From Modicisalibacter coralii (GTDB lineage Bacteria; Pseudomonadota; Gammaproteobacteria; Pseudomonadales; Halomonadaceae), in assembly GCF_004117855.1 (NCBI RefSeq), contig NZ_QWBW01000035.1, positions 1-47,382 on the forward strand: a stretch of DNA of 47,382 nt. Direction: 5' to 3'. Below are positions 16,379 to 19,169 of the stretch, one piece after another. The stretch's first letter is position 1. Each line of letters starts with the position of its first letter. The notes under the pieces are model-generated. The model was not told where the DNA came from. It ran no database searches and was given only the letters and a program-made list of their open reading frames with translations. A program made the position numbers and the translations under genes.

Positions 16379-16584
16379 CGGTTGTCGGGAAAGGCGCGAA
16401 AAACAAGCCGGAGGGAGCGATCCCGGGCGGCAAAAAGCTAGACAGAAGCTATACAAAAAAAGACTTGATCGTAGTTATTGCATAACCGTGGTACAGACAG
16501 CTAAATTGTACAACGTTCCATCATGGAAGGAACCACGCCAAAGGGTATGCAGGGCTTGCGCACGGACCTTTGACGGATGTCGTT

Positions 16585-16623
16585 TCATGCAAAATCTCAC
16601 CGAACATCATGCAAAATCTCACC
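16585..16623. repeat. 22-bp tandem duplication spanning a start codon
   Basis: The 17-base word TCATGCAAAATCTCACC occurs at 16585-16601 and again at 16607-16623, a period of 22 bp. Each copy contains an ATG that reads MQNLT. The second is in frame with the Crp/Fnr protein; the first is in another frame and reads MQNLTEHH. Confidence 0.85.
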
Positions 16624-17355
16624 TATCATATTGCCTTCACCGACCATGAGCGTCGGCTGGTATCGGCGCTGGAAGGCCCGCCAAAGGTAGTCAGCAAGGG
16701 CACCCGGCTGTGGGAGCCCGACGAAGCGCCACGTTACCTGTATTCGGTGCACCAGGGCTGGGCCTATACCTTTCACCGCACGGCAGACAATTCCGAACAG
16801 ATCCTCGATATCGGTCTGCCCGGCGATGTCATGGGCCTTCGTGACCTCACCTTCACGGCGCATTACACGGCGACGGAAATGCTGACCGATGGCATCGTCA
16901 GACCCATCCCCGTCGAGAATATCCATCGCCTTTTCCAGGTGGCGCCGCGCGTGGCCATGGCCCTTTATGCGGCCACGGCTCGCCAGCAGCGCACGATCAC
17001 CCAGCGCCTGATCAATGTCCTCAGCAACGACGCCGGTTCACGAATCGCCCATTTCGCCCTAGAAGTCCATCATCGGTTATCACGCAGCAACGCAACCGTC
17101 GGCAATACCTTCACCCTGCCGCTCACCCAGCGGCAACTGAGCCTGATGCTGGGCATGAGTGAAGTGCACGTCAGTCGCACGCTCAGCGACCTCGCCGCGC
17201 GTTGCCTGGTACGCCGGCAACGGCAGAGCATCGACATCCTGGACTTCGAGGAACTCGCGCGAATCGCCCACTTCCAACCCGAGCGATTCAGCGACACGCT
17301 CAACCCGGCGCTCTCCACACTCGATGCCCCCTCGCTGGAGGGAACGGCCTCCTGA
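16609..17355 (+). CDS. Crp/Fnr family transcriptional regulator
   Basis: A 248-aa protein with an N-terminal cyclic-nucleotide-binding-like beta-roll (ILDIGLPGDVMGLRDL), a long dimer helix and a C-terminal winged HTH (LTQRQLSLMLGMSEVHVSRTLSDLAARCLV). No N-terminal cysteine cluster is present, so it is not an Fnr-type iron-sulfur sensor. The start is uncertain: ATG 16609 lies in the second copy of a tandem duplication, and a TTG at 16570 would add 13 residues; neither has a clear ribosome site. It lies upstream of the sRNA region but on the opposite strand. Confidence 0.87.
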   Translation: MQNLTYHIAFTDHERRLVSALEGPPKVVSKGTRLWEPDEAPRYLYSVHQGWAYTFHRTADNSEQILDIGLPGDVMGLRDLTFTAHYTATEMLTDGIVRPIPVENIHRLFQVAPRVAMALYAATARQQRTITQRLINVLSNDAGSRIAHFALEVHHRLSRSNATVGNTFTLPLTQRQLSLMLGMSEVHVSRTLSDLAARCLVRRQRQSIDILDFEELARIAHFQPERFSDTLNPALSTLDAPSLEGTAS

Positions 17356-17403: not shown

Positions 17404-17434
17404 TAAAAAGGCCCCGTCCTGGCGGACGGGGCCT
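17404..17434 (-). terminator. Intrinsic terminator of sRNA copy 2
   Basis: Eleven-base-pair perfect GC-rich stem with loop TGGC on the plus strand; on the minus strand it is followed by TTTTTATG. The only T-tract is on the minus side, so it does not serve the plus-strand Crp/Fnr gene well. Confidence 0.8.
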
Positions 17435-17566
17435 GATGAGACAATCGATCATTTCGAGGTGGGTCTCCCTGGCAGTCACAACTTCCTGTTGACGCGTGCC
17501 ATCGACCCACAGGCAGACCTTCCCTGGTCCTGGGCTTCCTTGCCCGATCGACATCCCTATCGCCAT
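17404..17566 (-). ncRNA. CsrB/RsmZ-type regulatory RNA, copy 2
   Basis: About 160 nt on the minus strand with seven GGA motifs (complements at 17417, 17466, 17484, 17522, 17529, 17538, 17555). Several sit in hairpin loops: CAAC-AGGAA-GTTG, GACC-AGGGAA-GGTC and GGGC-AAGGAA-GCCC. This is the hallmark of RNAs that sequester CsrA/RsmA. It ends in an 11-bp stem (17409-17419 with 17424-17434) followed by a T-tract. A candidate extended -10 (TGCTGTAAG, about 17579-17571) would start transcription near 17565. No protein reading fits. RNA identity is inferred from motif content and structure. Confidence 0.72.
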
Positions 17567-17973
17567 GTGCCTTACAGCATTCAAGGCGAAGCCTGAAACG
17601 AAAGGCGAGCAACGTGCCAAACCTCATGCAGCGTCCCGGACGCAAGCGTGCGGTCACCCTCTGGCAGAGATTCAAAGCCGGAATCGGCCCTTTCGCCCCT
17701 CTTGTCGAGCCATCCTTGACCCGACGACGGTAATTTCTCATGTCGCCGGGGCGCTGTAATTAACCCATGTTATGTTGTACGATATTTTATCAATTTTACT
17801 CGCTTGTATAATTCGACCTCACACCTCATCCATCGCCCGGGCCGTCTTCGAGGCCTCGAATCGACTCATCTTCACATTGATTTTCAATAGCTTGAAGCGG
17901 AAAGGATCGGCAAGTGACAGGGACAATGCAGACTCGCCCCCCTGTTGTAAAACCGCCTTTGGCAGCTCATGGT

Positions 17974-18003
17974 CAAAAAAATGCCCCGCCGGGACGGCAG
18001 GGC
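17974..18003 (-). terminator. Intrinsic terminator between the two sRNAs
   Basis: Eight-base-pair stem with one G-T pair, five-base loop, followed on the minus strand by seven consecutive T residues (complement of 17975-17981). Confidence 0.75.
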
Positions 18004-18310
18004 CAAACGCAGGGATCGAAGAGGGGAATGAACGCCCGATTCGTCGATGACGGGTCGCTCAGGCACTCGCGACCGTCACCTCTCGTCGAGGGTCCCTGCC
18101 CGTCGTGGGCGCCGACAAGATATCGACGTCACGCGGGCAGCCACCTGAAAGAGAAAGAAAGGAAAGCGGAAATGGACAGGCCGGAGCCATGAACTTGGCG
18201 GGTCGACAGGCCCGACCGGATACCCAGGCAGTCCATTGCCTTTCTTCGCCGAACTCGGCGTGGTCCAGTGCGATGACTTTCGCATGAAGTCCGGCTTCGA
18301 TCAGCACAGA
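17975..18310 (-). ncRNA. Possible third minus-strand RNA ending at a strong terminator
   Basis: A strong intrinsic terminator (stem 17983-17990 with 17996-18003, then seven T on the minus strand) closes a stretch with no believable protein gene. Upstream, TTGTCA with a weak TAGTCT 17 bases later could start an RNA near 18305. It has only four GGA motifs in about 330 nt, no more than chance, although three lie in small hairpins (GAAG-CCGGA-CTTC, GGCA-ATGGAC-TGCC, GGG-CAGGGA-CCC). It may be a diverged CsrB-like RNA or an unrelated transcript. Confidence 0.3.
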
Positions 18311-18352: not shown

Positions 18353-18385
18353 TAAAAAGCGCCTCGCCAATAGTCGGCGAGGCGC
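18353..18385 (-). terminator. Intrinsic terminator of sRNA copy 1
   Basis: Ten-base-pair perfect stem (18359-18368 with 18376-18385), seven-base loop, followed on the minus strand by TTTTTATC. Confidence 0.82.
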
Positions 18386-18510
18386 GTTACTGCTCGGATC
18401 TCAGGCTCCCTGGTCAGGTGACATCCTGTCGCTGCGACCTCCCTGCCCTCGTGGCCTCCCTGGCCATCGGCATCCCTGCTCGAACGATCATCCCGATCAT
18501 CTTGAACACA
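18353..18510 (-). ncRNA. CsrB/RsmZ-type regulatory RNA, copy 1
   Basis: About 155 nt on the minus strand. Six GGA motifs (complements at 18407, 18424, 18440, 18457, 18473, 18491) are spaced 16-18 nt apart, four of them as CAGGGA and one as CAGGA. Small hairpins display them: GGCC-AGGGA-GGCC, GACA-GGA-TGTC, GCA-GGGA-TGC and GATC-GGGAT-GATC. This matches the CsrB/RsmY/RsmZ class, which titrates the translational repressor CsrA/RsmA, usually under GacA/UvrY control. The RNA ends in a 10-bp terminator stem and starts just downstream of an AT-rich promoter-like region. No classical GacA site was found. Confidence 0.78.
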
Positions 18511-18513
18511 GCC

Positions 18514-18555
18514 AATATAATACAGGTTATGAAAAATGTACAACCCGAGTACATT
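18514..18555 (-). promoter_or_regulatory. Promoter and inverted-repeat operator of sRNA copy 1
   Basis: A perfect inverted repeat with seven-base arms, AATGTAC-N7-GTACATT (18535-18555), overlaps the -35-like TTGTAC of the minus strand (18543-18538). Tandem -10-like hexamers TATTAT (18522-18517) and TATATT (18519-18514) follow. Placement suggests a dimeric regulator acting at this promoter. The dyad does not match the usual TGTAAG-N6-CTTACA GacA site. Confidence 0.5.
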
Positions 18556-18739: not shown

Positions 18740-19069
18740 TCAAGGGTGCGAGGCACAGGCCAGACAGCGGGTCGTGGCCGGCAGGGCCTGCAGACGACCG
18801 GGGTCGATCGAGACGCCGCAGCGCTCGCAACGTGAGCCATTGCCCTCGGCAATGCGCGTCAGGGCCCTCTTCACCTGATCGAGTTCGCCGCGAGCTTCTT
18901 CCTCCAGCCGATCGATCACCTCGTCATTCTCGATCTCGAGGGCCTGCTCGCCGAGATCCTTGTCGAGCGGCCCCGCCTCACGATGCTGATGGGCCCGGTA
19001 ACGCTGCAACCGTTCTTCCAGGGTATCGCGCAAGGCTTCGAGTTCCCGCCGTCGCTGGTTCGCGTTCAT
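18740..19069 (-). CDS. TraR/DksA family C4 zinc-finger protein
   Basis: A 109-aa protein with an N-terminal helical coiled coil (RRRELEALRDTLEERLQRYR) and a C-terminal zinc finger made of CERCG and TRCLAC. The DksA-type central acidic stretch (ENDEVIDRLEEEA) is present. Shorter than DksA itself (about 150 aa), it fits the small DksA-like/YbiI group thought to act in the RNA polymerase secondary channel. The ATG at 19069 was preferred to the longer frame from 19132 because family similarity begins there and GAGG lies upstream. No clear terminator separates it from the sRNA region downstream. Confidence 0.85.
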   Translation of the reverse strand: MNANQRRRELEALRDTLEERLQRYRAHQHREAGPLDKDLGEQALEIENDEVIDRLEEEARGELDQVKRALTRIAEGNGSRCERCGVSIDPGRLQALPATTRCLACASHP

Positions 19070-19169
19070 TGCCGTCGACCTCACTCCTCGCTGCTTCTCA
19101 TTGTTTTGTAGTACATCGCCGAGAAGCGACATTGACGACGATCAACTCGCGCAGCGCTCGGGCCGAATA

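Follow-up and report, generated by a model that had tools for sequence, protein, structure and literature searches.

We found that a segment of about 155 nt on the minus strand of a Modicisalibacter coralii contig (18352-18510, ends approximate), here called RNA-A, is very probably a sponge RNA of the Csr/Rsm kind, belonging to a Halomonadaceae set that Rfam does not contain. All positions refer to the window, i.e. the whole 47,382-nt stretch of DNA analysed; within the 4.44 Mb genome it makes up contig C28. The sequence itself shows the GGA motifs and a terminator, conservation and covariation, paralogous RNAs, and genes for both CsrA and GacA. At least six RNAs of this kind are predicted in the genome: RNA-A, its neighbour RNA-B, C10, C29, C35-3' and a repeat-expanded RNA on contig C35. 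The original prediction had read RNA-A as a CsrA-titrating RNA, and conserved GGA motifs, covarying stems and the presence of csrA and GacA/UvrY genes support that reading at the level of sequence.

RNA-A carries six GGA motifs that stand, on the minus strand, at 18493, 18475, 18459, 18442, 18426 and 18409, giving intervals of 18, 16, 17, 16 and 17 nt along the RNA. Four of the six stand in CAGGGA, the other two being CGGGA and ACAGGA, a recount that agrees with the six GGA at 16-18 nt, mostly CAGGGA, first reported. The chance expectation of two to three GGA given at that time also fits the 2.2 that we calculate for 158 nt at the window's minus-strand rate, but the claimed excess needs restating, as raw GGA density is ordinary here whereas CA(G)GGA density is unusual. 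Clusters of at least six GGA per 131 nt number 20 over both strands of the window, against a mean of 65 in whole-window dinucleotide shuffles. At least five CA(G)GGA per 131 nt occur at exactly two places in the window, RNA-A and 17457-17566, and clusters at that density appeared in 0/30 shuffles.

By prediction, RNA-A is an independent intergenic gene that has its own promoter and ends in an intrinsic terminator. A sigma-70-like promoter (TGTACA-17-TATATT; 18514-18542, minus strand) was the only one found in a 2 kb scan, against 0.6 in shuffles, and by eye TTGTACA followed by a TTGTCTA-type -10 precedes the relatives G003C1, G002C1, G081, G025 and G000:C10. The terminator scan returned an intrinsic terminator with a 12-bp stem and T tract at 18354-18385 (minus strand), whose stem (18385-18359) contains nine G-C pairs and runs into TTTTTAT, so that the clean terminator described earlier is indeed present; since the same 2 kb gave two terminator-like sites against 1.7 in shuffles, the terminator match alone is weak evidence. 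Raw GGA clusters being so common in the window, and ORFs of 50, 80 and 75 aa overlapping RNA-A, one could picture a coding or chance GGA-rich stretch devoid of RNA function. Those ORFs, however, have no Pfam match, as expected from the earlier statement that no protein gene lies here, most of the homologues that we read adjoin terminators outside evident genes, and their stems covary (see below), leaving this explanation extremely improbable.

All six GGA of RNA-A lie in local loops closed by at least 3 bp, against 1.81 in shuffles of RNA-A (p = 0.003), and several of these hairpin loops are conserved and covary in relatives. With at least four contiguous pairs required, just 2/6 do so against 0.72 expected (p = 0.15), meaning that the claim of four or more GGA in hairpin loops holds for stems of at least 3 bp but not for stems of at least 4 bp. 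RNA-A has a more stable fold than shuffled versions of itself (z -2.6), and its minimum-energy fold leaves some GGA unpaired and others paired. Judged from sequence, the hairpin case is stronger from relatives than from RNA-A's own fold.

A DNA-level BLAST search with RNA-A over 58 genomes, its own included, returned its own locus and one match in G021 (E 0.008), which was rejected as a relative on finding that it sits inside a 618-aa transporter-like ORF. Because RNA-A is too diverged for BLAST, relatives were sought by synteny. Upstream of RNA-A lies a DksA/TraR-type zinc-finger gene (18740-19132, minus strand; Pfam PF01258), and the far side of the interval is formed by a Crp/Fnr-type regulator gene (16570-17355, plus strand; PF13545, PF00027) that is convergent with RNA-B. 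Two relatives of the same genus, G003 and G002, have the same TraR-like neighbour as well as Crp-type orthologues of 70-71% identity, convergent with an RNA there too, and each holds in the TraR-like/Crp-like interval one GGA-hairpin RNA (CGGGC-AGGGAC-GCCCG and CAAC-AGGAG-GTTG are examples of the hairpins) that folds better than shuffles (z -3.3 and -4.0). The TraR-like-gene neighbourhood in G001 and G010 (L005, L006) contains no such RNA, an ftsH-type gene (AAA, peptidase M41, FtsH_ext) directly adjoining.

From RNA-A and the G003 and G002 RNAs we built a covariance model (R1), and from seven A-type RNAs, namely RNA-A and six relatives, a second one (R2). Both models matched a second predicted sponge RNA, RNA-B, 0.8 kb from RNA-A, that is included in neither of them and had been absent from the earlier account of this DNA. 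Its core spans 17454-17566 on the minus strand (R1, 17457-17566, E 1.7e-17; R2, 17454-17564, E 4.6e-7) and is followed by a terminator, GGCCCCGTCC-GCCA-GGACGGGGCC TTTTT (17405-17433, minus strand), read from sequence outside the stretch covered by the terminator scan. With two RNAs in the TraR-like/Crp-like interval, RNA-A and RNA-B make up a tandem pair. Upstream of RNA-B stands a conserved block, TCGTACAACATAACATGGGTTAATTAC (17755-17783, minus strand), whose elements GTACA..ATAAC.TGGGTTAATTAC are common to RNA-B, G003 and G002 and are not shared by RNA-A; since the distance from block to core varies, it is uncertain where RNA-B begins. On this sequence pattern the RNA of G003 and G002 appears to have its positional orthologue in RNA-B and not in RNA-A. 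Between the two RNAs we also noted a CGGGCAGGGA motif (18102-18093, minus strand) and a further terminator-like hairpin (18003-17983, minus strand); the minus strand of 17983-18110 is possibly the remnant of a third RNA, and neither R1 nor R2 matches it.

The sharing of the upstream block by RNA-B and the syntenic RNAs, and the smaller number of loops closed by at least 4 bp in RNA-A (two) than in RNA-B (four), would be in keeping with RNA-A being a decayed paralogue, a degenerating duplicate beside RNA-B as the working gene. We consider this very improbable, as RNA-A retains six GGA, a perfect 12-bp terminator and both hexamers of the promoter, and is similar to the remaining A-type RNAs (79 bits with R2, a partly circular score).

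When R1 was searched in 151 family genomes, its other matches included C29 of the same genome (G000:C29, E 4e-7), although C29 lies outside the model, and G009:C78 (E 4e-5), while C10 and C35-3' had no R1 match at E <= 1. R2 found five matches in the M. coralii genome, C29, C10, RNA-A, RNA-B and C35-3', of which C10 (4.5e-18) and C35-3' (5.7e-6) come, like RNA-B, from outside the model. RNA-A itself was matched at 18396-18501 (79.4 bits, E 2.5e-15) and falls, by this match and by the hairpin order that it shares, within the Halomonadaceae A-type Csr RNAs as defined here, evidence that is partly circular with RNA-A as one of the seven model rows. Of the 151 family genomes, 11 had an R2 match at E <= 1e-4; six of these had contributed rows to the model, so that five are new (G167, G011, G005, G169 and G142). 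Beyond the family, 2/115 genomes of the order had a match at E <= 0.001, these being the M. coralii genome itself and G218 (8e-4).

Inspected by eye, most of the better-match loci have GGA hairpins and a terminator. Weak R1 matches are mostly noise: 13/24 weak-match loci were unconvincing by eye, six (L093, L097, L098, L103, L108, L110) clearly held terminator-bearing RNAs with GGA hairpins, and at another five (L095, L104, L105, L109, L112) there was a different small RNA, which has one CCAGGGATGG hairpin. The G135:C1 match (R1 E 1.6e-5) and L177 both read as coding by eye. The totals of 78/151 genomes with R1 (E <= 1) and 56/151 with R2 (E <= 0.05) are consequently not genome counts of the RNA, and only the 11/151 at E <= 1e-4 are used as the count of family genomes that possess it. 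As an observation in its own right, the five loci with the different small RNA share a conserved type made up of one GGTGTGGTGGCCAGGGATGGCCCGTTTT hairpin and a terminator, with CATAAC(A/C)TARGTTA upstream.

In an alignment of RNA-A with six relatives (A6, seven rows), counterparts of RNA-A's GGA, no more than three columns off, are present in 5, 7, 7, 6, 7 and 7 of the seven rows, RNA-A counted, for the six motifs in turn. A wider alignment (A7) took in 27 R2 matches, 26 of them distinct, fitted to the model's structure and including two doubtful rows (L177, likely a chance match, and the second L097 match). Pairing held in 90.2% of its cells, and there were 22 compensatory cells against 5.8 in shuffles, with 0/500 shuffles reaching 22; sliding the pairing partner lowered pairing to 44% or less and compensatory cells to eight or fewer. 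Of the five measures, that of further pair types did not clearly exceed the shuffles (13 versus 11.0; 65/500), and the initial alignment, of three sequences, showed no more covariation than shuffles did (109/500). The GGA positions and stems, on whose conservation the original prediction had staked itself, are thus retained in relatives, the former in 5-7 of the seven A6 rows and the latter covarying over 26 sequences.

The individual hairpins, all on the minus strand, differ in how firmly they are kept. The stem of hairpin 0 (GATGATC[GGGAT]GATCGTT; 18483-18501) is replaced yet paired, with GGA always in the loop, in 8/8 A-type RNAs, as can be seen independently of the model from the first-hairpin stems GATGATC/GATCGTT, CGATCA/TGATCG, GGCAATC/GATTGTC and CGTGATC/GATTGCG and, in the other four, GGCGGCC/GGCTGCC, GGTGGCC/GGCCGCC, CCGCGC/GCGTGG and CCACGC/GCGTGG. 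Hairpin 1 (GCA[GGGA]TGC, longer with one bulged base; 18470-18479) corresponds to helix 1, which is paired in just 59.6% of cells, hairpin 2 (TGGCC[AGGGA]GGCCA; 18452-18466) to helix 2, paired in 100%, and hairpin 4 (GAC[AGGAT]GTC; 18420-18430), which we take to be a near match to the CsrA SELEX consensus, to helix 3, paired in 98.6%. Site 3 is a weak hairpin, GGC[AGGGAG]GTC (18436-18447), with its GGA present in 6/7 A6 rows, and site 5 a CAGGGA within another weak hairpin (18402-18412), with its GGA in 7/7.

Among 14 RNAs compared, each has 5 to 10 GGA, of which 3 to 7 lie in loops of at least 3 bp. The near-constant spacing to which attention had been drawn is real, RNA-A being the most evenly spaced of the 14, but it is peculiar to RNA-A and not a feature of the family: C29 (14-20 nt) and G003C1b (14-21 nt) come near and the others vary over a wider range, a spread that gives no support to regular intervals of 16-18 nt throughout the family.

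Rfam gave no match at the gathering cut-off anywhere in the window. The check proposed with the original prediction accordingly went against it, in that CsrB (RF00018), CsrC, RsmY (RF00195), RsmZ and rsmX (RF02144) all remained below the gathering cut-off. The best Csr-type match to RNA-A was rsmX with 13 bits (gathering 56, E = 6), and over the whole genome Rfam CsrB matched C35 alone (best 13.7 bits, E 0.24). None of 29 relative loci scanned reached an Rfam Csr cut-off either; the best Csr-clan match among them was the G010 relative of the C35 RNA (CsrB, 35 bits, E 3.7e-6, gathering 71), and RsmY matches of 21-25 bits were obtained at L118, L119 and L174. The missing Rfam call for RNA-A would suit a structured sRNA of another type, for instance an ordinary trans-acting one (Hfq/ProQ-type), whose GGA would have a structural role or be due to a different protein, and any sRNA could combine promoter and terminator with a fold as strong as this one (z -2.6). 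Against this, conservation tracks the GGA loops, with stems swapped while the GGA stays in the loop, and the 14 RNAs have their several looped GGA in common. We regard an ordinary sRNA as very improbable and continue to read RNA-A as a Csr/Rsm sponge.

RNAs of the CsrB/CsrC type end in a Rho-independent terminator, and the RsmX, RsmY and RsmZ RNAs of Pseudomonas are about 110-180 nt long with 5-8 GGA. RNA-A resembles CsrB/CsrC of Enterobacterales and CsrB-D/CsrB1-4 of Vibrio in its GGA hairpin loops, intergenic site and several copies per genome, but differs from them in being far shorter (about 155 nt, six GGA), in scoring below the Rfam CsrB cut-off and in lacking a recognisable GacA box. 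It is closer to RsmX/Y/Z in size, GGA number and hairpin-loop presentation, rsmX being its best, albeit insignificant, Csr-clan match; in contrast to these it has no above-cut-off match and no GacA box, and has a paralogue next to it in the same intergenic region. According to one report, E. coli CsrB and CsrC contain 22 and 14 GGA, and Pseudoalteromonas carries several Csr RNA copies per genome (PMC11882849); in Vibrio, several CsrB copies per genome are likewise given, with four in V. tasmaniensis (PMC6262261). A further precedent is Pf1/Pf2/Pf3 of Pseudoalteromonas fuliginea, lineage-specific Csr RNAs that the former report describes as found by GGA number, promoter and terminator, with binding of Pf2 and Pf3 to CsrA seen by gel shift (PMC11882849). 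As presented there, those RNAs have 25, 21 and 9 GGA and are experimentally shown, whereas the Halomonadaceae set stands on sequence evidence, covariation and six predicted copies.

The protein partner is encoded in the same genome. csrA is present in 14/14 genomes of the genus, in M. coralii as a single copy (G000:C15; PF02599, 93.5 bits), and its product shows one difference in the first 55 residues from the Halomonas hydrothermalis CsrA sequence as printed in PMC12889724. A GacA/UvrY orthologue is also present, at 290 bits with a cut-off of 280.

The GacA box has the consensus TGTAAG-N6-CTTACA. Scored against this consensus, the best site upstream of RNA-A agrees at 8/12 positions (p 0.6) and that upstream of RNA-B at 7/12 (p 1.0), both as in shuffles, and no box with three or fewer mismatches lies near RNA-A or RNA-B in the window. 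GacA control of RNA-A is unsupported at the consensus level, and RNA-A lacks the upstream box of a GacA-dependent Rsm RNA. Boxes of 11/12 precede 3/28 RNAs examined (G012, G008 and G006). In addition, the predicted sponge-type RNAs at L118 (G012:C6) and L119 (G008:C8), each preceded by a GacA box of 11/12, run convergently with a Crp-type gene and are situated 12-14 kb from csrA; at both loci a weak RsmY match (21-25 bits) lies on the opposite strand between the RNA and the Crp gene.

A different palindrome recurs before these RNAs. TAAC-N4-GTTA occurs exactly within 200 nt upstream of 11/38 RNAs (0.1 expected), and with up to one mismatch upstream of 20/38 (2.7 expected), numbers that are to be read with the pattern and the upstream regions having been picked after some sequences had been read. 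The sole exact copy in the window (17761-17772; 0.04 expected) stands before RNA-B, about 200 nt from its core, and RNA-A is preceded by TAACCTGTATTA (18518-18529, minus strand), with one mismatch, overlapping the -10 of RNA-A by two bases. TAAC-N4-GTTA is a candidate operator for some regulator.

The most unusual part of the RNA set is a giant CsrB-like RNA followed by an A-type RNA downstream of chaC (L054:1040-1790, corresponding to G000:C35 at about 28.9-29.7 kb, minus strand). The predicted giant RNA, its ends approximate, consists of a 68-bp unit repeated 4.4 times in tandem and holds 31 GGA in about 355 nt, with the recurring hairpins GGGC-AGGAC-GCCC and GAGC-AGGAT-GCTC; after it comes C35-3', the A-type RNA, with its own terminator. 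By eye, the G003 counterpart of this pair has a single repeat unit. No giant RNA was found downstream of chaC in eight other genus members that have chaC, and relatives of the giant RNA were found by sequence elsewhere in genomes.

By analogy with CsrB/CsrC and RsmX/Y/Z, RNA-A would be transcribed as a non-coding RNA of about 155 nt from its own sigma-70-type promoter to the intrinsic terminator, and would fold as successive small hairpins with (CA)GGA displayed in their loops. CsrA dimers would bind these loops, and CsrA would therefore be titrated off mRNA leaders, relieving their CsrA control. The six predicted RNAs probably form one pool fed by several input signals. More tentatively, and with the doubts outweighing the case for it, CsrA in this lineage might be governed by an unusually large pool of at least six sponge RNAs that is in part independent of Gac, some in tandem and a good share of them near the TAAC-N4-GTTA operator, with the C35 RNA grown by 68-bp repeats, sponge capacity evolving by repeat number, and the RNA-A/RNA-B pair wired to another input than the GacA-box RNAs of relatives.

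Halomonadaceae are used for ectoine and bioplastic production. By title or the start of the abstract, no description of such RNAs in Halomonas or Halomonadaceae appeared among the matches listed in the open-licence PMC literature. A 2020 review gives Halomonas anticariensis GacS-GacA with CsrA in brackets and the sRNA partners as 'Unknown' (PMC7366521), a CsrA-binding model for Halomonas hydrothermalis leaves sponge RNAs to future models (PMC12889724), and a further paper mentions Halomonas solely for an engineered PrrF1 scaffold (PMC13414033). The RNAs described here are strong candidates for the sRNA arm listed as 'Unknown' in that review (PMC7366521). With no scanned locus at an Rfam Csr cut-off, Rfam-based annotation would miss them; a substantial share of them is picked up by R1 and R2. 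Their copy number, tandem pairing and repeat-expanded member let one ask why a single protein should have so many sponges, and how sponge capacity evolves.
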